DNA of 64,000 bases from Fistulifera solaris (taxonomy: Eukaryota; Bacillariophyta; Bacillariophyceae; Naviculales; Stauroneidaceae), in assembly GCA_030295235.1 (NCBI GenBank), contig AP026164.1, forward strand, positions 1,426,001-1,490,000. The letters are read 5' to 3'. The notes below the pieces were generated by a model, which was not told the origin of the DNA, ran no database searches, and saw only the letters and a list, made by a program, of their open reading frames with translations. Shown one piece after another: positions 4,100-44,071 of this stretch. Position 1 is the stretch's first letter. Each line of letters starts with the position of its first letter. Made by a program: the position numbers and the translations under genes.

Positions 4100-5054
4100 C
4101 TTTCTGGTCGCCGTTGCTTTGATTTATTTGAGCCGAGAGTCCGAATTTCGAAAAGACTACTACTACGTGTCCCGCATCTTTTTTGGAAGACGAACCCCAT
4201 CCTCGAACGCCTATTATCCATCGGTCTGGGCAGCATAGATTTTCTCGCCATGCTTGGACGTCGGTGGAAAAGAATAACCGTAGTGGTGAAAAGCAATCTT
4301 TGCTCGATAATCAATAATGGCAATTTATGAGGATTTTGAGCTCTAGATGTAATTGGGCCAGCGTTGGATCGTCAAAGGCATCTTGACAGCCGCGATGTAC
4401 TCGTGGAACGTGATGCGATGTACAAGTTACGAAAGACCTCCTCCATTGACAAGGAAGGAGTCAAGATCAAGCACGATACTCTCTAGCTCTTTGCCACTTG
4501 CAAACAACCAAGGACTTTTGCCACCTTCAACATGCGACACGCAACCGAAGTGGTCAATCAGATCCTCATGAAGTCCATTTCAACCTCGTATTACTGCTAT
4601 AGCATCTTCTCTTTAAAAGAGAGTGTTAGCGTCGACACCGTGTCCCTTGCCATTTTCTATTGGCAGAGAAGACACTAATATCACATCAACAACCTTGTTA
4701 TGAAGCATAGATCAAAAACAAGATGGAAATGCTTGAACCTGTACAAGGTACTGGATGCCATGGAACAATCTGTTCATAATGCTGTCATTTTCAGTCGACA
4801 AGAAAATGAATCACAACCAGCTTTTCAAGTTTCTGGATACCCGGCTTTCTTTCCGTTGAACCGATGGCAATATATCTCTTCATCAAATCACCTCATATAA
4901 TATGCTTTGAGAGTGAAAATGGAAGAATCAAGCAACACAGCCATAGATTGCAGACCGATGTAAGTCGTAAAGTTCTAGCTCGAACGAGAAGGATCGCCGC
5001 CCCGTATAAACTGGCTTCCGAAAAAAGGAATGACCGCAACGAATCATCATCCCC

Positions 5055-5058
5055 AAAA
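5055..5058 (-). terminator. Pol III T4 terminator after the tRNA 5' half
   Basis: Four consecutive T on the minus strand, 8 nt after the last base of the 5' half of the permuted tRNA candidate. No T4 run occurs inside the candidate transcript. The sister copy has an equivalent T4 at 11407-11410. Confidence 0.5.
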
Positions 5059-5066
5059 GATTCAGA

Positions 5067-5148
5067 CCGTAGTCAGGCGCCTTGCCATTGGGCCAACGGG
5101 AAAGCACGACGATTTCCCGCCCGGGATTCGAACCCGGAATCTCCTGAT
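5067..5148 (-). tRNA. Candidate circularly permuted tRNA-Arg(ACG)
   Basis: Read on the minus strand, a tRNA 3' half (5148-5113) precedes the matching 5' half (5102-5067), separated by 10 nt. Joined in normal order they make a complete 72-nt cloverleaf. The acceptor pairs TTCCCGT (5102-5096) with GCGGGAA (5120-5114), with discriminator A at 5113. The T arm is CCGGG TTCGAAT CCCGG, and the anticodon stem is CCTGA with TCAGG. The loop reads CTACGG from the 5' half plus A from the 3' half, anticodon ACG (Arg). U8, A14, G18G19, A21, U33, G37 and TTC-A of the T loop are all present. B-box lies upstream of A-box. The break falls exactly between positions 37 and 38. Leader TCAG (5159-5156) can pair with trailer CTGA (5065-5062), and leader TAG with loop CTA, giving a bulge-helix-bulge-like fold around both cut sites. 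Permuted tRNAs are known from red algae, prasinophytes and a nucleomorph; I know of none reported in diatoms. Confidence 0.75.
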
Positions 5149-5165
5149 ACACTAGCTGACATTGT

Positions 5166-6616
5166 CATGAAGAGAGGTAATTCGTTGATATAAATATAGC
5201 AGTTAAGGCACTCGTTTTCAGCGTCTTTTTAAGTAATTCGGTGGGGCGGTAACTGGACGGTACATTTTCTCCCAGTCATCCAGTACCGCACAGGTGCGCG
5301 ATGCGACAGAACAATCCCCCATGGTCCTTCCGCCAACAGTCCTCTGCCCCAGTGAAGAATAAAAAAGCAAAAGTACGATCTCCCTGGATGTGAACCATCC
5401 GTCGAACAAGGGCGGAAAAACAACGCAACGCCATGATATGACGCCATGGCTATGCCAACAAAACCGCACAACGACCGACCTCCGCTCTTCGCTCCTCGCT
5501 CCTGCCTCCCCTTGCCCTCGCTCCTCGCTTTCTCCAACTCCAACACTCCTCGAACTCGAACTCGAACCTCGATCCTAAAACTTGTCCTTACGCCAACGGT
5601 GCTCTGTCCGTGTAAAATAATGAAAGAGCAAAAGTAAAATCTTCACTGGATGTGAACCGTCCGTGGAAAGAAGGTCGAGTAGATGCCTAAACGGGACAAG
5701 GACCGCAGCAAGCTTTCCTTCGAGCAGCGCGCGTGTATTGGAATCCGACAACCGATAAGAGACATGATGGCTTTCCTTTTGATCCGATCACGCAAAAGAA
5801 TGATTCATTCCCTGAAAGCTTACTCACATTCACATAGGCTTTTGCAGACGGGGTTACCGGGGCAGAGCAATCAAAGGAAGGCCCTGGCTATTTCGTCTCA
5901 ACGATGACTCTCGTACCTGGCGATTGATGGAAAGCTCTTTCTTCAAATTATTTGTTCCCTTTCTCACCATACCTTGTATTTTTTCGTCAACAGCATGTGA
6001 GACGAGTCGTCGTCGTCCGATTTTTTGTCTTTCGCGCGCACCAAAATGGTGTGGTTCATTGGAAATTTGATTTCCCGCTGGAAAGACGCTCAACGCAGAG
6101 GAGTGAGCCCATTGCTAGCCGTTAATCGTTATTTGCCGAGAAGAGAAGGGAACGCAAATGCGGATAAAATGATAAATAAAGCCTATGAATGTACGGAGTG
6201 AATCACTTTTGACGCCATGGTCGTAATGTAACATTCACGTCCGATGAGGGACTACAATGAGCCAAATGGCCAAAAAGGGAAAGAAACGTAAAAATGACCC
6301 GAACGAGTCACACTGAGTATCCATCAAGTTGTAGAGAAAGACATAGTGAATTTCACACGTCACTCGTTTTGAATAATAATCTTTTCGAATTCACATTCGA
6401 CGAGAGCGAGATCGACGAAAACGTAAAACAAAAATCTTTTCCGAAGCCCTCGCAACGAAGATACCAGGTACCGAGTACGAAAGACGACTGACGTTCCCAA
6501 TTACCAGGTATTTCAACTTTGCACACGTTGAGCTTCTTCTTCATTCTCGAATACAACCATTTGTTCGTTCTTCGACTTGTGTTTTTATTAATTTACAAGA
6601 GCCTTACTAGCATATC
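5166..6616. other. Intergenic region upstream of UGP/PGM
   Basis: No convincing gene. It holds a degenerate direct repeat (see 5325-5680), a CT-rich simple stretch around 5480-5560 with repeated GCTCCTCGC, and two TACCAGGTA-type motifs at about 6471 and 6502. The motifs lie just upstream of the UGP/PGM start. Open frames on both strands here have no family features. Confidence 0.5.
5325..5680 (+). repeat. Degenerate direct repeat, two copies 260 bp apart
   Basis: About 85 bp starting at CGCCAACAGT (5331) recurs from CGCCAACGGT (5591), with shared blocks AGCAAAAGTA and CTGGATGTGAACC followed by TCCGT. Identity is roughly 75% by eye. The repeat has no coding potential and no known family. Confidence 0.6.
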
Positions 6617-9600
6617 ATGGCTTCGTTTGCACCTACCAAGGTATGTCATTTCGAGACGAATTCTCATGAATCGCGAACAAGGACACTGCAGCGAATCTCA
6701 CAACATTCTTCGTCGTGGATCAGGCCAAAATGGAGGCTGAAGGGATCTCTCCTTCGGCTATTTCGGCTTTCGAATCGACTTTCAATTCGCTCGTATCAGG
6801 GAATACTGGTTTGATTCCCGAAGACACCATCTCACCAGCGCCGGACCTCGACAACGCCGAAGACTTTTCGAAAAGTATTACGGTCGATCCCGCTTTGCTC
6901 AAAGAAACCGTCGTTCTCAAGCTCAATGGAGGCCTCGGTACCGGCATGGGTCTTGACAAGGCGAAATCGTTGCTCAAAGTCAAAGGCGACGATACTTTCT
7001 TGGACTTGACGGCCAAACAGGTCATGCAAATGCGCGAAGAATACGGAATGAAGGTCAAGTTCATGCTCATGAACTCCTTTTCGACATCCCAAGATACTTT
7101 GGACTTTTTGAAAACCAAGTATCCGGGTTTGGCGTCCGAGGAAGGCCTCGAAATGATGCAAAACAAGGTCCCCAAATTGAATGCGGATACGCTAGAGGTA
7201 CGTCGTGGTTCAACAAAGTGAGTTTTCGTCGGACGTTGGACTCACAATTCTGGTCCCTTCGTTCTCTAGCCCGCCGTGTGCGAAACAGACCCCGACAACG
7301 AGTGGTGTCCTCCGGGTCACGGTGATTTGTATGCCGCCTTGGTCGGCTCCGGATGCTTGGACAGTTTGCTGGCCAGTGGCTTCAAGTACATGTTCGTGTC
7401 CAACTCGGACAACTTGGGGGCGGTCTTGGACTTGGCCATCTTGACCTACTTTGCCCTAAAGGGTTCTTCCTTCATGATGGAGTGCTGTGAACGGACCGAA
7501 AACGACAAGAAGGGTGGTCATTTGGCCGTTCGCAAGGCGGATGGTCAGTTGGTGTTGCGCGAGTCGGCCATGTGTGCCGACGAAGATGAAGACGCCTTTC
7601 AAGATATCACCAAGCATCGATTTTTCAATACCAACAATCTTTGGATCCGCTTGGATATTTTGAAGCAAATCATTGATAAGAACGGTGGCTTTATTCCGTT
7701 GCCGATGATTAAGAACAAGAAGACTGTCGACCCCAAAGATGATTCCTCGCAAGCGGTCTTTCAATTGGAAACGGCCATGGGAGCTGCTATTGAATGCTTC
7801 GATGGCGCCACGGCCATTGTGGTACCACGTACTCGTTTCGCTCCCGTGAAGAAATGCAGTGATTTGCTTCTTCTACGAAGTGATGCTTACACATTGGTGG
7901 ATCACAAGCCCGTTTTGAATCCGGCGTGTGGTGAAGCAGCACCAATTATCGACCTAGACAGCAAGGCGTACAAACTAGTCGGTGCGCTCGAGGAAGCAAC
8001 TGCGGGTGGTGTTCCGTCTTTGGTGAACTGCAAGCGTCTCAAAATCAAGGGAAAAGTTCGCGTGTCGTCGAAAACGAAATTCATTGGTGACGTTGTCATC
8101 ACCAACAGCAGCTCGGAGAGCAAATTCGTTCCCCCGGGTGAGGTCACCGGTAGTCACGACTTGACCGCCGCTGTCGGCATGGGTAAATTGTGTCCTATTA
8201 TTGTCTCGACGACGCCTATTGATGGACAAAAGCCGGGTACTTCCGGTCTTCGCAAGAAAGTCAAGGAATTCATGCAAGAGAATTATCTCGAAAATTTTGT
8301 CCAGTCGACGTTTGATGCCGTGAAAGCCAGCGGAACGGACGTTACCAAGGGTTCTTTGGTCATTGGTGGAGATGGTCGCTACTTCAACGATAAAGCTATC
8401 CAGACGATCATCAAAATGGGTGTTGCGAACGGTGTAAAGCGCTTCTGGATCGGACAAGATGGTCTCTTATCGACTCCTGCCGTTTCAGCCGTAATCCGAG
8501 AACGCGGACCGGGCTGGCAGTCGGCATTTGGTGCATTCATTTTGACGGCCAGTCACAACCCCGGTGGGCCAGACGAAGATTTCGGCATCAAGTACAACGG
8601 CGAGCACGGCCAGCCGGCACCGGAGAAGGTTACGGATGAAATTTATGCCAACACATGCTCTATTAAATCCTACAAGATTTGCAAGGACTTTCCTACAATC
8701 GATGTGTCCATTCCGGGTACCACCAACGTCAAGGCAGATGATGGAAGCAGCGAGGTCAATGTGGAAGTTATTAGCGCTACGGACAACCATGTTGAGTTGC
8801 TCAAATCAATCTTTGATTTTCCTGCGATCAAAGCGCTTCTCGACCGAAAGGACTTTACGATGGTGTACGATACAATGTACGGTGTGAATGGTCCGTACGC
8901 AAAGAAGGTTTTCGTTGAAGAGCTTGGCCAGCCTGAAGAGATTTGCATGAACGCTACTCCCATGGATGATTTTAATGGTGGTCACGCCGACCCTAACCTG
9001 ACCTACGCTAAAGAACTAGTGGCGAAAATGGGACTCGACCGCAACGGAATGAAAATCGACGTCCCTGCAGGAAGTAAAATTCCTGATTTTGGGGCTGCCG
9101 CTGATGGGGATGGCGACCGAAACATGATTCTGGGCAAGCAGTTTTTCGTCAGTCCTTCCGACTCGCTAGCTGTCATCGTCGCAAATGCTGATGCTATCCC
9201 ATTCTTCCGAACTCAGGGTGGACTAAAAGGTGTCGCCCGCTCTATGCCTACTTCCGGGGCTGTCGACCTTGTGGCCAAAGATTTGAACTATAGTCTTTTC
9301 GAGACACCGACAGGTTGGAAATACTTTGGCAATCTAATGGATTCCAAGGAATTATTTGGAGGCGAGGACTACACGCCGTTTATTTGCGGTGAAGAATCCT
9401 TTGGTACAGGATCGAATCACGTTCGTGAAAAGGACGGTATTTGGGCCGTTTTAGCATGGCTGCAAATTCTAGCGGTAGCCAATCCAGACGCCACTCAACC
9501 GCTAACTACGGTCGAGGATATCGTTACCGCGCATTGGCGAAAATACGGACGAAACTACTATTCCCGTTGGGATTTCGAGGGAGTTGATAAAGTCAAGGCG

Positions 9601-9951
9601 ACTGCTATGATAGACAAAATGCGTTCGGATGCTGAAGCAAACACTGGAAAGACTGTCGGAAAGTACAAAATTGCCAAGGCAGACGACTTTACGTATGTTG
9701 ATCCTGTTGATGGAAGTGTTTCGAAGAATCAAGGCATTCGATTTCTCATGGAAGATGGATCTCGCATTATCTTTCGCTTGTCCGGCACAGCCGGTTCTGG
9801 TGCCACTGTTCGTATGTACATCGAGCAGTACGAACCGGAAAAGATCGACATGGTTGCTTCCGAGGCGCTGGGTGATTTAATTCGTATTGCGTTGGACCTT
9901 TGCGACATAAACGGGTTCCTCGGTACCGAGGAACCTACTGTCATTACTTAA
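6617..9951 (+). CDS. UGP/PGM: UDP-glucose pyrophosphorylase / phosphoglucomutase fusion
   Basis: Bifunctional enzyme that interconverts glucose-6-P and glucose-1-P and makes UDP-glucose from glucose-1-P and UTP. It feeds chrysolaminarin, sugar-nucleotide and glycolipid synthesis; the fusion is a known diatom arrangement. Three exons: 6617-6640 (MASFAPTK), 6724-7197 and 7270-9951, with introns 6641-6723 and 7198-7269, both GT-AG; total 1,059 residues. The UGP part (about 1-480) has the nucleotide loop LNGGLGTGMGLDKAKSLL and WCPPGHGDLY. The PGM part (about 500-1059) has GTSGLRKKV, the phosphoserine loop TASHNPGG, the metal loop DGDGDRN, the sugar loop GEESFG and the phosphate-binding RLSGTAGSG. 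All catalytic motifs are intact and there is no frame break. No signal peptide, so cytosolic. It lies between the two arms of the inverted duplication. Confidence 0.95.
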
Positions 9952-11289: not shown

Positions 11290-12333
11290 TCTTGACCACG
11301 TCGGCTAGTGCATCAGGAGATTTCAGGGTTCGAAACATCCCGGGCAGGAAATCGTCGAAGTTTCCCGTTGGCCCAATGGCAAGGCGCCTGACTACGGTCT
11401 GAATATTTTGTGGATGATGATTCGTTGCGGTCTTTCCTTTTGTTTGTCATCTTTCTCGTTCGAGCTAAGACTGGCATATGCCGGCAATCTATTGCTGCGT
11501 CGCTTGATTCTTCCAGTTTCATTCTCGACGAAAACTCTTTGAGGTGATTTGATGAAGAGATATTACTGTACCTGGTAAGTCGCTTCAGCGGAAAGAATGC
11601 CAGGTATCCAGAAATTTGAAAAGCCTTTCGTGATTTCATGTCTTATCGACTGAACATGACAGCACTACGGATTGGTCTTTTCAATGGCATACAGTACAGG
11701 TACAAGCATTCTCGATCTTGCTTTTGATCAATGCAAAATAATAAGGTTGCTGGACTGAGAGAATTGTGTGCTCTAGCAATAGAAAAATGGCAAAGGACGC
11801 GGTATTGACGCCAACATTTTCTTTGCGATGAGAAGGTGAGATTGCAGTATTACGAGGCTGAAGTCTGACTGCATGAGGATCTGATTGACGACCACTTCGG
11901 TTGCGTGTCGCATGTTGAAGGTGGCAAAGTCCTTGGTTGTTTGCAAAGCGGCGATGATCAAGAGTCTTGTGCCCGATTCTACTTCTCCCTTGTCAATGAA
12001 CAAGGGTTTTCGTAACTTGTACACTCCATAATGTCCCACTCGAACACTATCACTGGACAAGATGCCTTTTACGATCAGTAGCTGGCTCACTCACATTTAA
12101 GTTCAAAATACTCATTAATAGCTACTATTGATTATCGAGCAAAGATTGCTTTTCACCACTACGGTTATTCTTTTCCACCGACGTCCAAGCATGGCGAGAA
12201 AATCCATGCTGCCCAGTCCGATGGATAATAGGCGTTCGAGGATGGGGTTCTACTTCCAGAAAAGCTGCGGGATAGTAGTCTTTTCGAAATTCGGATTCTC
12301 GGCTCAAATAAATCAAAGCAACGGCGACCAGAA
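11290..12333 (-). repeat. Inverted segmental duplication, arm B
   Basis: Partner of 4100-5165 in opposite orientation. It contains the tRNA-like copy at 11313-11398, an unassigned stretch and the last part of the membrane protein gene at 12125-12940. Within it, 11773-12090 on the minus strand is open for about 105 codons but starts with GTG and matches no family I know. The arm A equivalent does not keep this frame open, so I do not call a gene. Confidence 0.8.
11313..11398 (+). pseudogene. Decayed permuted tRNA-Arg copy
   Basis: Sister of the tRNA candidate at 5067-5148, with the same order: 3' half (11313-11352), a 10-nt spacer, 5' half (11363-11398), then T4 at 11407-11410. The 5' half is base-for-base identical to the intact copy. 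The 3' half has substitutions and 2-3 extra bases in the T arm and an acceptor mismatch (GCAGGAA against TTCCCGT), so it probably no longer folds well. Because both arms share the permuted order, that order predates the duplication. Confidence 0.7.
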
Positions 12334-12940
12334 AATAAGATAATCCCAAGAGTGCTTCCAGCAATCCTTTCAAGCTCCAGCAAAGGGATGCCATGAAGAA
12401 GAGCAGAGCGGGCCTTCCGACCGGATGAAACACCACGCCAAAATAATCTTCCAGCATTTGCCTCGTTTCCATACCACGATACGTAGTCCACGCAGTTCCT
12501 TCTGTCACACCGGATGCAAATGAATGTTCATCGTCGCCATTATTTGTATTGACGCTGCTCCGTATCGGCGACGAAAGTAGTAACGCATCGGAAAGACCGA
12601 GCAAGAAAGCCAGAAACGCCAAGTAAACGGACAAAATCAACCGCGTCCATTGTAGCATAATTAAATGCCACAGCCACGTCCACAGCAACAAGAAAATGGT
12701 GGCCAAAGATAGAACAACAACGGTCGTCCGCAATTGTTTGATACTTTCGTGTACGGCGCCACAAAACGAGTATTCATACGAGTTTGTTAGACCAATATTG
12801 GGTCGGAGTCTGGCGTTTCCGTACCACCAACTCCTCGGTATATCATCATCGTGCCGTATAGTTGGAGCTTCTACGGACCGGCCTCCTGTTTGATAGGATC
12901 GTAGTAAAGGATCGTCTTGTGAAGGATGCGGATAGGACAT
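12125..12940 (-). CDS. Hypothetical multi-pass membrane protein
   Basis: Not recognised. About 271 residues from the first ATG (12940); upstream the frame is open to a TTG at 13018 but lacks an ATG. A polar N-terminus (about 75 residues, rich in Pro, Arg and Asp) is followed by hydrophobic segments around TTVVVLSLATIFLLLWTWLW, LILSVYLAFLAFLLGL and a longer pair from PALLFFMASLCW to VALIYLSRE, four helices in all. The tail is hydrophilic and basic. The last quarter is duplicated as a broken fragment at 4100-4320. Possible roles cannot be read from the sequence. Its promoter region is shared with nothing else, and the next gene upstream is the antiporter, about 1 kb away and divergent. Confidence 0.65.
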   Translation of the reverse strand: MSYPHPSQDDPLLRSYQTGGRSVEAPTIRHDDDIPRSWWYGNARLRPNIGLTNSYEYSFCGAVHESIKQLRTTVVVLSLATIFLLLWTWLWHLIMLQWTRLILSVYLAFLAFLLGLSDALLLSSPIRSSVNTNNGDDEHSFASGVTEGTAWTTYRGMETRQMLEDYFGVVFHPVGRPALLFFMASLCWSLKGLLEALLGLSYFLVAVALIYLSRESEFRKDYYPAAFLEVEPHPRTPIIHRTGQHGFSRHAWTSVEKNNRSGEKQSLLDNQ

Positions 12941-14003
12941 TTCTAAGTATTGAAAAATGAAATAGCCGCCGAACGAGACTGGGTCGTAGAATCGGAAGCA
13001 CAATTTGTGGAGCGTCAACTCAAAGCTTACAGATAAATCGCGGGTAGATTGTAAAGTTGTTGTGTTGTTTATTGTTGTTTGTTACCTGGTATGGTTCTTG
13101 TCGCGAAAGCTGAAAGGCGTGAGAAGCACGACGAAAAAAAAACGCCAAAGATCCAAAATAGGTTATCCTCGACAGGGTTAAGGGTCTTGGTTCACGGGGA
13201 CAGTAGCCATTTTGAAAAAGAATGAGTCGTCGTCTGCCTGACGCAACCATAACTCGATCTTCTAGTTTTTACTTGTGTATCCATGTTTTAGAAAAACAGA
13301 AAATCCCTACCAGGACGGTTCTGATGTGCATGTATACTTGACTATTAAAAACATCTCGTCAAGGCTCTTTACTCGTGACTGCAATACAGTCGTAGCGAAG
13401 TACCCTCTCAACAAATTTGTACCATAGGGGAATGTTCCAAATCCCTCTTTTTCTATATTTTCGGCTCCACACCCGTGATAAATGCAATGTATGAGAGGGG
13501 ATTTGGGGTCCCGTTTTTACAAAAAGGGGGGATTTGGAAATCATCCCGTACCATAGTGAAAGCTGCAGTAGATCATACACAAAGATTTCTCGACCATGAA
13601 AGAAAATGACCTGAATGTCGAGATCGAGATGAAGCATTCAGATTCTGAGAACTTTGAAGTAAGTGCTGTCCATAATGCTTCTTTCGGCCCGATTTACATC
13701 GCACTTTGATATCTTAACCTTTCCATTTTTGGGGGTCTCGGATCACGAATAAACGGGACAAAAGAATTTTTCGTTGACGTCTAGCTGACGTACCGTAAAC
13801 CAGTCATCCTTCTCTTTGCATTTACAGTCGCCGATGGATTTCTCTCCACCGTTACTGTCAAAGTTCCCTCTTTCGAGCGGCAAAACGCTTTCCATGTCAA
13901 AGAGAAAAAGTGTTTTTCATCCCATGAAAGTACAAACGTGACGAAAATCATCATCTTTCATAAGAACGCAAAACACTTATTGAAACTCTTTTTTTTATTG
14001 CAA
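12941..14003. other. Divergent intergenic region
   Basis: Separates the membrane protein and antiporter genes. It holds a TACCTGGTA motif (about 13086) and a GACTG-CAATA-CAGTC hairpin (13377-13391). There is also a short degenerate repeat around 13420-13560, in which TACCATAG occurs twice, with GGGGATTTGG-type blocks between the two. No gene seen; the region just upstream of 14004 is open back to a GTG at 13938 but the first ATG is preferred. Confidence 0.5.
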
Positions 14004-18441: not shown

Positions 18442-19418
18442 TTTACGCTCTCAATATTAGCCTCAAACGTATTATCGTTACTAGGTACTGGTAAGCTACT
18501 ACGTATGAACATGCTACCAGTCGTTCGAGAAAAAACGGCGAAAGTGGGAACGTCGTCTGGGCGTCGACACGCCGTTTCCCGCTAGGTGAGTGCTTCAGCA
18601 AGATCGACCACATCAGCTCATGGCAAAAATTATTATACCAAAAATGTCAACATTAATTTCACCAACAAACTAGATTTGTCGTAACAAACGATAAGCGTCA
18701 TCAGTGGGATTCAAAACAAAGAACAATGACGAATGATGCAACGCCTCGCAATTCTACTTACGTTTCACGTACAGTAGCTCTCGTGGGAAATTTTTCGACC
18801 AGACCCCGTACCAGGTACCGGTACCTGGTACTTGTATTTGGTCTGCTTGACACCAAATGTTATAATTGGTCTCGCCAGAGCAGAACATAGTGTTCTTTAT
18901 TTCTATCACCAAACGATAAACGACATCAAGGCAATTCAAAATGTGTAAAAGAGAATAATGCAACGCCTCGAATTTCTACGTACATTTCACGTGGCTCTCG
19001 TAGGAAATTTATCGATTTAGGGGGGTACCCGGGTACAAAGTATCAAAGAAATTCGGCCATCGGCCACCTCAATTTGAAAAGTCCTTTTCCCAAAAATGTC
19101 AAAGCTAACTTCACAAACGTACCTTATTTATTTGTAGCCACTCTAGCAATAAGCGTGATCATTAGGAATTCAAAACGTAGAAAAGACGAACAACGCTTCA
19201 AAAGTCTACATATATCTTACTTAGCCCTCGTAGCGAATGAACTGCAATGAAATGAAACTTCATTTTTGGAACTGCATTATCTCAGTCAAATGTCGCGAGA
19301 AAAAAAGAATTCGCTGGGCCTTATTAACGATCATTTTTAATGATGCTTAAGACTTGGAAATTCTATAACAATATTTTGGTGGCTCTGACTGTTACCTGAT
19401 ACGTCATGGTCTACTAGT
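18442..19418. other. Intergenic region with degenerate repeats
   Basis: No gene seen. Three degenerate copies of a 100-130 bp unit lie at about 18665-18795, 18905-19010 and 19135-19240. Recurring blocks are AACGATAA, ATTCAAAA, AATGCAACGCCTCG, TCTACNTA and CTCTCGT-GGAAA. Between copies one and two is a dense cluster of TACCAGGTA/TACCTGGTA palindromes (18808-18833). Confidence 0.6.
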
Positions 19419-20344: not shown

Positions 20345-21249
20345 GGCCTGGAAACTGTTTCTCTTTGGATGAGCGAATTTGAATGAGAATAGAGCGCGTT
20401 GATTTCTACGTTTTTGTTTATGATGTTTATTGGTTTTCGGTTCAACGTTTCGCAGCTGACACAGTCGCGAAAAGATCTGTTGTGCGATGACGACGACTGA
20501 CTCGTGAAGGAAAATGATCATCCAGTCGTAAAAATTTGGTACACATTATTTTTAATAAGAAGTCTGCGAAAACCTTTGAATTTCTGTTCATTGTTTTGCC
20601 TCGCCATTCCCATTCCCATTGCCATTACCATTTGCAGCTAGTCTTCAAAATAAAACCAAGCAGCCATCGCCACAGTTGCTGTTGACTTGTAGGTGTGGTG
20701 TCTTTACGCTAAAGACAACAAGTCCACAGCAAATCTGTGGATGTTGTATTTCATGTGCCCAGAAAATTTAGGCGTTTGGATTGTTCAAGCCCCCAGAAAA
20801 TCTGTGGGAGTGGATACGTTTCCAGAAATTCTGGAGAAGTGGATATTTTACTTACCGAAAATCTGGGAGCGTGGTACCTGGTAATTTCACGTATCCAGAA
20901 AATATGGGTGTATGGTGTTTTCACATATCCAGAAAATCTGGGAGCGTGGTACCTGGTAATTTCACGTATCCAGAAAATATGGGTGTATGGTGTTTTCACA
21001 TATCCAGAAAATCTGGGAGCGTGGTACCTGGTAATTTCACGTATCCAGAAAATATGGGTGTATGGTGTTTTCACATATCCAGAAAATCTGGGGGAAATTG
21101 TTTGGAAATCGGCACACGAAACTGTGTCAGATTATTGCGTCGAGTTTTTTGCGAGGTGATTTTTTTGTCATCGTGATGTGAGAAAGCAAACGCCAAGTGC
21201 CGACGTATATTCCAATCTGACCTCCGTCCTCATCAGATAATAGCATACC
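20345..21249. other. Divergent promoter region between two FKBP genes
   Basis: This 0.9-kb region lies between two head-to-head FKBP genes and contains the 75-bp minisatellite at 20855-21095. It also has looser CAGAAAATCTG-type units from about 20758. An open frame crosses the minisatellite only because 75 is a multiple of three. Confidence 0.6.
20855..21095 (+). repeat. 75-bp minisatellite, about three copies
   Basis: Exact 75-bp units start at 20881, 20956 and 21031 (GTAATTTCACGTATCCAG...), with partial units on both sides. Each unit contains two near-palindromes, CCAGAAAATATGG and CCAGAAAATCTGG, and the motif TACCTGGTA at the junction. Two degenerate half-units lie just upstream (from about 20758). 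The near-identity of the copies points to recent expansion. Confidence 0.9.
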
Positions 21250-38752: not shown

Positions 38753-39378
38753 AGGAATACCAGCTATGAAAATCGTCGGCGATCGTTACATTCTTGGTAA
38801 AATTGGAAGATAAATAGGTCTATTTTTGCAAAGAAGCAGACAGGTAGACGGGAATCAAACCACCAACGGCATATTACCAACAAGCTCCGATATGATGAAT
38901 CTCGGTGGATTAATTTCCATAATAATGAATCAAAAAACAAACGAGTACCCATTGGCAGACAAATCATGAGATCCATCATTAAAGATTTTGTTCGGCGATC
39001 GACGGAACTGGACTCTGAAAGGCGTGAATATTTTCGTGGTCAAATAACTACCTGGTCGCTCTAAAAGTTTCTTGAGCATTATTTGTCGTCAATATTGACT
39101 AGCTTCCCACGGGGCCGACGCAATTTTTCACGTAGACCTTAAATTGTTGCAAAAGTACTGTGTTTCTGGTATTTGAAACAGCATTACACCCCGGAGTAAA
39201 CAGAATAGTGTTCGAGAATAAAACAAGTTGAACATAACTCTAGTTGGAATGACAGTCATTTTACAGAAATCCTGGAGCGTTGTTTGTTGTTTTTGATGAT
39301 ACAGAAATCCTTTCCAGAAATTGTGGATACGGTGTTTTGGTTTGTGGAGAAATTCTGCGTACGATCCCGAATTTCTAA

Positions 39379-39855
39379 GGCTACTACGCTACTACCAAAC
39401 TTCCATTTTGATTCTGCTCAATTAGCTGGCGCTTTTTTGTTTCATTCAGAAAGCAGTAGCGTTCAGCAGCATTTGCAATAGACGCGGCGACTCATGATGC
39501 CGAAAGTCCTTGCGGATCTCTGTTTTTCTGTATTTACTATATACCTCAAGTGTTGACTGTTTTTCGCCACGACTGCATTTCAGTCATGAGTCACTTTCCT
39601 TCCGAACAACGCTACTAGGCTACTACGCTCCTACCAAACTTTCATTTTGATTCTGCTCAATTAGCGGGCGCTTTTTTGTTTCATTCAGAAAGCAGTAGCG
39701 TTCAGCAGCATTGCAATAGACGCGGCGACTCATGATGCCGAAAGTCCTTGCGGATCTCTGTTTTTCTGTATTTACTATATACCTCAAGTGTTGACTGTTT
39801 TTCGCCACGACTGCATTTCAGTCATGAGTCACTTTCCTTCCGAACAACGCTACTA
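39379..39855 (+). repeat. 239-bp tandem duplication
   Basis: Unit 1 (39379-39617) and unit 2 (39618-39855) are nearly identical, with a handful of substitutions and a one-base length difference. Each ends ...CCGAACAACGCTACTAG and contains one GACTG-CATTT-CAGTC hairpin (39571-39585 and 39809-39823). Non-coding; the copies must be young. Confidence 0.9.
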
Positions 39856-40241
39856 GTGCCTCATAGCAGAGCGTATCCAAAACACAAACAAGTCTATCCA
39901 ACTGTATAATGTTATTGTAGAAACGGAGTACCGGTGCGGATACGATGGATACACCATTACTATTAAGTTATTCCGCAGGAGCGAGTAAAATAGCTCCGTT
40001 AAGGATAAAATTATCGTGACTTTTCATCGTGCTCTTTTGCATCTCGCATTCAAAAAATGGAGGTGAATTTTTACAACGACGAAAGCTGGTCTACACATGG
40101 CGACCACATTCAAATTACTACTCCGTACTAGAAATGCTGTATCCAGGTGGATACATTTTGTGTCGTACTGGTATGCTTGGATACACGTTTACTACTGTTG
40201 TATCCAATGTATTCCTGGGGATACGCTCTGCTGTGAGGCAC
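39856..40241. mobile_element. MITE, 386 bp, TA target site
   Basis: Begins GTGCCTCATAGCAG...GCGTATCC and ends with the reverse complement over 23 bp, with a single mismatch (TIRs 39856-39878 and 40219-40241). It is bounded on both sides by TA (39854-39855, 40242-40243), consistent with a Tc1/mariner-type target duplication. Internal sequence is AT-rich with several GGATAC/GTATCC motifs and no transposase. It sits exactly at the end of the 239-bp tandem duplication. A plain non-autonomous DNA transposon; the superfamily is inferred only from the TA. Confidence 0.8.
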
Positions 40242-42659: not shown

Positions 42660-43421
42660 CTAGTCTTTTTCTTTAAGGGTACAAAGAATATTGACCATCT
42701 TCACAACCGAATATGGCTTTCCCTCAATCATCACGTCATTTCCAGCGTAGTCCTTGAATTTGACGAAATCGCCAACTTTCACTGGACTGGGGGTGAATTC
42801 ACCTTTACTGGCCATCCTTCCTTCTCCTACTTTCACGACACGTCCCTCACACGGCACATCATCTTTCGTTACCTGTGAAGCAATCACAACACCCGACTTG
42901 GTTTGCATAGGATCACCGCCGAATTTTTCGTCAAGTTCAACCAATACATAATCTCGTACCGGAGTTACTGTTTCGAGTTTCATCGTTACACCCGAGTACG
43001 CGAGCAGAACATCATCATCGCGAATCATTTGACATTCTTCGCCCTTATACTGAACTGCTTTTCCGTCAAATTTTCCATACAATACCGACATTCCTGCTTC
43101 AATTGGATTGGTAATACGTACACCTGTGAAAGGGTGGAGCTTTCCTGGTCCAGCCTCTAGCACCAACCCTTCCGTGGGTTTCTCTTTCGATTGATCGGGA
43201 AGGAGAATACCCCCACTTGTGGCGGTCAAAGTGTCCTTTACTTTGACAAGGATGAAATTTCCCAGAGGAGTGATCGGTCCTCGAATATCTTTTCCATCCA
43301 AAGTGAATGTCGACGGAGGCGATGATTGCAAAATTGTTTGAGGCGATGAAGCAGGCGAAACCGAGATCCAAGCGTCAGCTACACCTAGTAGAAGTGTCAA
43401 AAAGAACACCGATAGCCTCAT
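42660..43421 (-). CDS. CPN20: Chloroplast co-chaperonin Cpn20 (double Cpn10)
   Basis: Plastid co-chaperonin that caps Cpn60 during folding of Rubisco and other stromal proteins. 253 residues, no intron. A signal peptide (LSVFFLTLLLGVADA) is followed by W in place of the usual F at the plastid cleavage site. Two GroES folds are in tandem. Unit 1 is about 50-150 (ITPLGNFILVKVKD, SGGILLPDQSKEKPTEGLVLEAG). Unit 2 is about 155-250 (VTPVRDYVLVELDE, SGVVIASQVTKDDVPCEGRVVKVG, VKVGDFVKFKDYAG). Both carry the mobile-loop region between the opening strand and the G-V/I-L/V-I-L/A motif. The start ATG sits directly before the signal peptide. Confidence 0.93.
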   Translation of the reverse strand: MRLSVFFLTLLLGVADAWISVSPASSPQTILQSSPPSTFTLDGKDIRGPITPLGNFILVKVKDTLTATSGGILLPDQSKEKPTEGLVLEAGPGKLHPFTGVRITNPIEAGMSVLYGKFDGKAVQYKGEECQMIRDDDVLLAYSGVTMKLETVTPVRDYVLVELDEKFGGDPMQTKSGVVIASQVTKDDVPCEGRVVKVGEGRMASKGEFTPSPVKVGDFVKFKDYAGNDVMIEGKPYSVVKMVNILCTLKEKD

Positions 43422-44071
43422 GGCGGATATGTAAACTGCGATTTGAATATTTAGCCTTTATGGACACAACGCTTGTCAAATTCGATGATGTCGATTGATC
43501 AAGAAGGTTTCGAATGATTGAAATGCCATCGATGGCGTTCGTCGCTTTTGTTGTTGTACTTGTACCAGGTAGTTTGCGTTTGATGTTTTTTTTGCGTTTT
43601 GATCTTGCGTCACACGCATTACCTGGTAGTAGCACGGACGGCTTTCGTCGCTCTGTCGCACCGACACGTGGAAGTAATAAGTACCGTACCGGACTAGAAG
43701 GACTGAACTGTGTACTCCTCTGTAAAGTCCCTATCTACAAAGTAGACATCTAGACGTCGCAACGTGAATTTTACGACCCAGAAAATGGCTGGTTTGAAAG
43801 TTGCGTCGGACTGGCCATACAACTCCGTAAATCTTCTACGGTTAGGCGCAAACTCAACCAACCACCAACGGACTGAAAACCAACCCAGAAAAAAAAGCAA
43901 CAGAAACGTAATACGGAGTAACAAACAACAGCAAAGAAAGCTTTGTTGATCAGGAGAGCACTCGCTGTTGCCTAGTATGCATTGATAACACTAAAAGCAA
44001 AACAGCATTTTTCCTTTACGGTTCGGAAGCAGTTATTGTGAGTAAACGTCACTAAAAAGTAATTCGCAAAA
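43422..44071. other. Divergent intergenic region
   Basis: Between Cpn20 (minus) and the CW protein (plus). It holds TACCAGGTAGT (about 43562) and, 57 bp on, its inverse TACCTGGTAGT (about 43620), forming an inverted pair. Open frames are short and without similarity. Confidence 0.5.

Follow-up and report, generated by a model that had tools for sequence, protein, structure and literature searches.

A circularly permuted tRNAArg (ACG) gene and its damaged second copy in DNA of a probable photosynthetic stramenopile

The minus strand at 5067–5148 of the analysed window (the whole stretch of DNA under study, 64,000 nucleotides) raises the question of whether a tRNA gene is encoded there with its two halves in reverse order, and whether such a gene is working or is a relic. 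The sequence-only reading had described a tRNAArg (ACG) gene of this kind, and its two halves, 10-nucleotide spacer and coordinates were found again when the sequence was re-read. The leader stretch (5160–5149, minus strand) contained the motifs TCAG (5159–5156) and TAG (5154–5152), followed by the 3′ half (tRNA positions 38–73; 5148–5113), the spacer between positions 73 and 1 (5112–5103), the 5′ half (positions 1–37; 5102–5067), the trailer with CTGA (5065–5062), which can pair with TCAG, and a run of four T nucleotides (T4; 5058–5055), a possible RNA polymerase III terminator whose presence was as claimed. The 3′ half is present upstream of the 5′ half on one strand, with a short spacer between them, and the order of an ordinary linear or intron-bearing gene, in which the 5′ half comes first, was not found at 5067–5148. 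The assignment of 5148–5067 (minus strand) as a permuted tRNAArg (ACG) gene of the 37/38 type is well supported.

The two halves, when rejoined, gave a consensus tRNA of 72 nucleotides, which ARAGORN called as tRNAArg (acg) with a score of 120.9; this score equals or exceeds that of 79% of 624 linear tRNAs of the fetched loci. The earlier claim of a complete cloverleaf with perfect anti-codon, T, and acceptor stems holds for the anti-codon and T stems, which contained five pairs each, but not fully for the acceptor stem, where one of the seven pairs is G-U (7:66). The D-stem contained three pairs. By eye, the rejoined tRNA contained T8, A14, A15, G18, G19, A21, C32, T33, and G37 nucleotides, followed by T48, G53, T54, T55, C56, G57, A58, and C61. 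ARAGORN placed the insertion at 37–38, in agreement with the split proposed earlier, and this is the junction of a type II permuted gene. The anti-codon arm, which closes across the joint, contained 5/5 Watson-Crick pairs together with Y32, T33, and R37, and such an arm was obtained in 30 of 400000 random draws of window pieces. The identical 17-nucleotide arm occurred in 49 viral stretches, and ARAGORN called 42 of these as tRNAArg. The D-loop contained C20 instead of A20, which counts against a working tRNAArg; in many eukaryotes, A20 contributes to arginine identity. In ten long frames of the window, the codons CGT, CGC, and CGA made up 255 of the 435 arginine codons, so a tRNAArg (ACG) is in demand.

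Ordinary scanning did not call the locus. In the whole unaltered window, no tRNA was called by ARAGORN, nor by Rfam at gathering scores, and no linear tRNA was called by ARAGORN at the default threshold with introns of up to 3000 nucleotides allowed. When the 82 nucleotides were taken alone, the only part that Rfam recognised as tRNA was the 3′ half, in truncated form, and its 18.0 bits fell short of the gathering score (29). The sequence-only reading had advised a search for permuted genes, which was run on doubled pieces of 200 nucleotides, in which a gene with its permutation in the anti-codon loop looks like one with an intron. With a reduced threshold, ARAGORN returned 358 calls across the window; only calls at the default threshold were used. 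The scan yielded four calls in the window, all at 5067–5148, which was the sole locus called; three were tRNAArg (acg) with the “intron” at 37–38 and one was a tRNAAsp, called in a piece where the 5′ half is cut short. The permuted score of the locus was 113.3, whereas the best dinucleotide shuffle reached 106.2, and 0 of 1000 shuffles attained the score of the locus. A call of any kind was obtained in 42 of 1000 dinucleotide shuffles and in 2 of 150 in a smaller set. The sensitivity of the scan was such that 38 of 42 planted permuted genes were recovered.

The background of the same scan was taken from doubled pieces of 55 fetched loci (518313 bases), which are a biased sample as they were chosen by tRNA patterns. 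It contained 216 joint-spanning calls in 36 loci, of which 30 were left after the pieces with a linear tRNA had been dropped; the best of these 30 scored 112.9, against 113.3 at the locus under study. After rejoining, viral calls scored up to 124.4, and two of them were also split at 37–38 (L009 and L054). An ARAGORN score is therefore not enough by itself to tell permuted tRNA genes and tRNA-like RNAs apart. Better discrimination is provided by the Arg (ACG) anti-codon arm with its 37/38 split, together with the conservation of the exons.

Bacterial Y RNA is described as superposing on tRNA in circularly permuted order (PMC11472068), and a T arm, acceptor, and D arm alone therefore do not prove a permuted tRNA. 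The locus could be such a Y-RNA-like mimic of the YrlA type, with T arm, acceptor, and D arm permuted and no tRNA made, as in the Rfam family RF02553, which shares this arrangement with 5067–5148. YrlA was the second-best Rfam family on the 82 nucleotides (17.6 bits) and the best match on 4850–5350 (20.1 bits, E 0.11), but the latter value is far under the YrlA gathering score of 69. YrlA and other bacterial Y RNAs are reported to contain a long stem where tRNA has the anti-codon arm (PMC8394870). At 5067–5148, a full Arg (ACG) arm with a stem of 5 bp and a loop of 7 nucleotides closes across the 37/38 split instead, and in the alignment to YrlA non-standard pairs are numerous along the basal stem, so that the long basal stem was not found. 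Permuted tRNA-like calls were also present in viral contigs, where one of the two tested (L033) matched YrlA with an E of 9.4e-6. The argument from the arm is weakened by two of the five viral calls drawn (L033 and L016), which also contained five paired arm positions, with splits at 34–35 and 30–31 and other anti-codons. We consider a YrlA-type mimic at this locus highly improbable, and the permuted tRNA gene is the preferred reading.

For some of the permuted tRNA-like stretches of the viral contigs, an identity as Y RNA or as another kind of tRNA mimic is possible. In viral tRNA clusters, a stretch of this kind without a linear tRNA call was found in L033 (9291–9405, minus strand), and joint-spanning calls were also found in L009, L010, L016, L022, and L052. 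At a relaxed threshold, L009 matched YrlA with an E of 0.15 and tRNA with an E of 0.069; the matches of L009 and L033 were all below gathering scores. No YrlA was present among the 150 of 184 matches listed for 11 viral loci at Rfam gathering scores. Inside another viral tRNA cluster, L025 contained a stretch of only 155 nucleotides (4747–4901, minus strand) that matched the permuted-tmRNA model of Rfam with 60.2 bits (cut-off 47).

A second copy in permuted order, which the earlier reading had overlooked, was found at 11312–11397 on the plus strand. Its 5′ half (11362–11397) was intact and identical to that of the first copy (36/36), and its spacer (11352–11361) differed at 3 of 10 positions, whereas its 3′ half (11312–11351) was damaged by two substitutions and by insertions of 1 and 3 nucleotides. 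Through these changes the T loop is larger than in the first copy, and mismatches are present in the stems of the T arm and the acceptor. The rejoined second copy scored 102.0 in ARAGORN; it was absent from the calls of the doubled-piece scan, and Rfam found nothing there at E values up to 10. The two copies lie within an inverted duplication of 1.1 kb, in which 4101–5188, holding copy 1, corresponds to 12334–11272, holding copy 2, with 79% identity over 1113 BLAST columns in a self-comparison of the window. They are about 6 kb apart, in opposite orientation and in the same permuted order. The presence of this order in both diverged copies indicates that the permutation is older than the duplication. 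An assembly error or a chance resemblance was also considered, as the locus is known from one window without reads. Two diverged copies of the same order in opposite orientation make an assembly error very unlikely, and none of the 1000 shuffles reached the score of the locus; we put the probability of this explanation close to negligible. Copy 2 adjoins the frame 12125–13081 (minus strand), whereas copy 1 adjoins a frameshifted fragment of the end of the same frame, near 4101–4329. The frame beside copy 2 and its fragment beside copy 1 suggest that the site of copy 2 was probably the donor of the duplication.

The pattern of substitution between the two copies was not uniform. The leader differed at 11 of 40 positions, the 3′ half at 2 of 36, the spacer at 3 of 10, and the 5′ half at 0 of 36. 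Below the 5′ half, the trailer with the terminator differed at 1 of 12 positions and the next block at 2 of 32. Elsewhere in the duplication, 36 of 213, 43 of 239, and 35 of 191 positions differed in further noncoding blocks, and 11 of 222 in the gene fragment. The exons, taken together, differed at 2 of 72 positions against 127 of 714 in the pooled noncoding flanks (binomial P about 1e-4, Fisher 3e-4), in a test that counts aligned positions and leaves out the two insertions of copy 2. The exons of the permuted tRNA thus look constrained between the two copies. The conservation continues below the gene, where 3 of 44 aligned positions differed from 5066 to 5021.

An upstream TATA-like stretch and a downstream T-stretch were both found at copy 1. 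The TATA-like stretch (5198–5188, minus strand) is located 40–50 nucleotides upstream of the 3′ half, and it sits at and beyond the edge of the duplication. TTTT was present at an equal offset in copy 2, whereas no TATA-like counterpart was found in the 60 nucleotides upstream of copy 2. A TATA-like stretch beside copy 1 only would fit a loss of expression and subsequent decay of copy 2, without being proof of it. Each of these signals is weak when taken alone, as TATAW occurs in 3.7% of random stretches of 40 nucleotides and TTTT in 8.4% of random stretches of 16 nucleotides.

A bulge-helix-bulge-like fold of TCAG with CTGA had also been claimed. The pairing exists: around the two cut sites, TAG of the leader can pair with CTA of the anti-codon loop and TCAG with CTGA of the trailer. 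However, the bulge-helix-bulge is of the relaxed form (central helix of 3 bp, bulges of 4 nucleotides) and only weakly better than chance; 466–954 of 20000 random flanks equalled the relaxed motif at the junction under a rule set after the sequence had been seen, and 356 of 2000 random flanks equalled the leader/trailer fold by energy. All seven leader/trailer pairs are possible in both copies, one of them being G-U in copy 2. The pairing stretch of the leader was not kept significantly better than the rest, with 1 of 9 against 10 of 31 positions differing (P 0.40). In unconstrained folding of four precursors, the permuted cloverleaf with the pairing was obtained only for 5163–5057, which is cut inside T4; the three precursors with the whole T4 folded otherwise.

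According to a further explanation, both copies are relics, that is, an unused permuted tRNA pseudogene that was copied again with its surroundings. Such a relic could have originated from a tandem duplication with loss of the outer halves, or from reverse transcription of a circular tRNA. The plain damage of copy 2, the weak bulge-helix-bulge and the conservation extending below the gene agree with this explanation, and linear tRNAArg (ACG) genes may exist outside the window. Against it, all stems of copy 1 are intact in spite of the divergence of the flanks, the exons are far better conserved than the spacer and the leader, and T4, the TATA-like stretch and the complete anti-codon arm are all in place. 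Remnants of the outer halves were not found either; within 300 nucleotides on each side, no alignment exceeded those of shuffles, in accordance with the earlier statement that a missing half is absent near the gene. We regard the relic explanation as unlikely, and copy 1 as probably expressed and functional.

The layout, the cloverleaf, the possible pairing, T4, the TATA-like stretch, and the exon conservation relative to the duplicate were observed directly, and from these we infer transcription, splicing, and charging of the permuted tRNA. We consider it likely that 5148–5067 (minus strand) is a nuclear tRNAArg (ACG) gene in circularly permuted form (37/38, type II), most probably a working one. 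As its A and B boxes are in reverse order, RNA polymerase III would start from the TATA-like element located upstream and would end at T4. The precursor would then fold with the anti-codon arm closed and the leader and trailer paired, and the tRNA splicing endonuclease would cut between the leader and position 38 and between position 37 and the trailer. A ligase would join 37 to 38 to give a circle, from which the spacer between 73 and 1 would be excised by RNase P and RNase Z, followed by the addition of CCA. The conversion of A34 to inosine would allow the reading of CGU, CGC, and CGA. It is possible, but rather doubtful, that the decoding of the arginine CGN codons in a photosynthetic stramenopile depends on a tRNA derived solely or chiefly from the permuted gene through a circular precursor, and that selection kept the gene through the local duplication; the TATA-like element may then explain why copy 1 is intact and copy 2 decayed.

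The neighbouring genes bear on the identity of the host. The frame 7270–9951 was found to encode a UGPase fused to a phosphoglucomutase (PGM), and 6715–7221 appears by eye to be the beginning of this frame, and 6715–9951 may form a single gene interrupted by an intron near 7221–7270. The UGPase/PGM fusion has been described in Phaeodactylum and Phytophthora (PMC2173943) and also in Thalassiosira (PMC8541152). A protein search found no related UGPase/PGM in the viral contigs, a collection that is not algal. Several frames, for example that of a Cpn10 protein (42660–43457), contained by eye a signal peptide followed by a plastid-type aromatic motif and are candidates for plastid presequences. 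The fusion and the candidate presequences indicate a photosynthetic stramenopile; this identity of the host is supported, and a diatom is plausible. Elsewhere, the window contained a tandem duplication of about 240 nucleotides with 98% identity (39378–39856) and more imperfect direct repeats at 20748–21092, 18685–19015, and 5324–5668.

Relatives of the arrangement were searched with strict patterns and none were found in the genome contigs or in the viral contigs; as these collections are not algal, the absence says little. A relaxed pattern gave six viral stretches, and none of them, by eye, had acceptor halves that complement each other as those of a permuted gene do. In these stretches, ARAGORN called tandem tRNAs (at least two) at L001, L002, L003, and L006, whereas L004 had a single tRNA call and L005 had none. 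Among the open-licence PMC papers listed by the searches, none described a permuted tRNA gene from a diatom or any other stramenopile, which agrees with the earlier statement that no diatom case was known. The extension to stramenopiles, which had also been claimed, is supported as regards the permuted gene and, through the UGPase/PGM fusion and the presequences, the photosynthetic stramenopile host, whereas function is the part that we infer.

Permuted tRNA genes have been listed for a red alga, green algae, a chlorarachniophyte nucleomorph, and one archaeon (PMC3978253), and those of type II for Cyanidioschyzon merolae, prasinophytes, and the Bigelowiella nucleomorph (Table 1 of the same paper); Auxenochlorella (PMC12633428) and the Amorphochlora nucleomorph (PMC4494063) were added later. 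The gene in our study is of the known 37/38 kind, in a probably new lineage. With the nucleus of a stramenopile as host, this list would gain a lineage, which would favour either repeated origin or a wide occurrence missed by linear scanners. The pair of an intact and a decayed copy is a natural comparison that provides evidence of exon constraint, and it makes testable whether an upstream TATA-like element replaces the reversed internal promoter. Auxenochlorella shares the reverse order of the halves, but it is a green alga in which the whole tRNA set was described, the genes having been found after a normal scan left the set incomplete, whereas here one window was studied. The likeness to the type II genes of PMC3978253 extends to the 3′ half in first place, the 37/38 junction, the spacer (10 nucleotides here, against a range of 1–74 in the table), the lack of an encoded CCA, as in the eukaryotic cases, the T-stretch and the TATA-like or AT-rich upstream region. 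The table contains Arg (CCT) of C. merolae and Arg (TCT) of O. tauri but not Arg (ACG), and the present gene further differs from those of the table in a host that looks like a stramenopile and in a diverged, damaged copy about 6 kb away.
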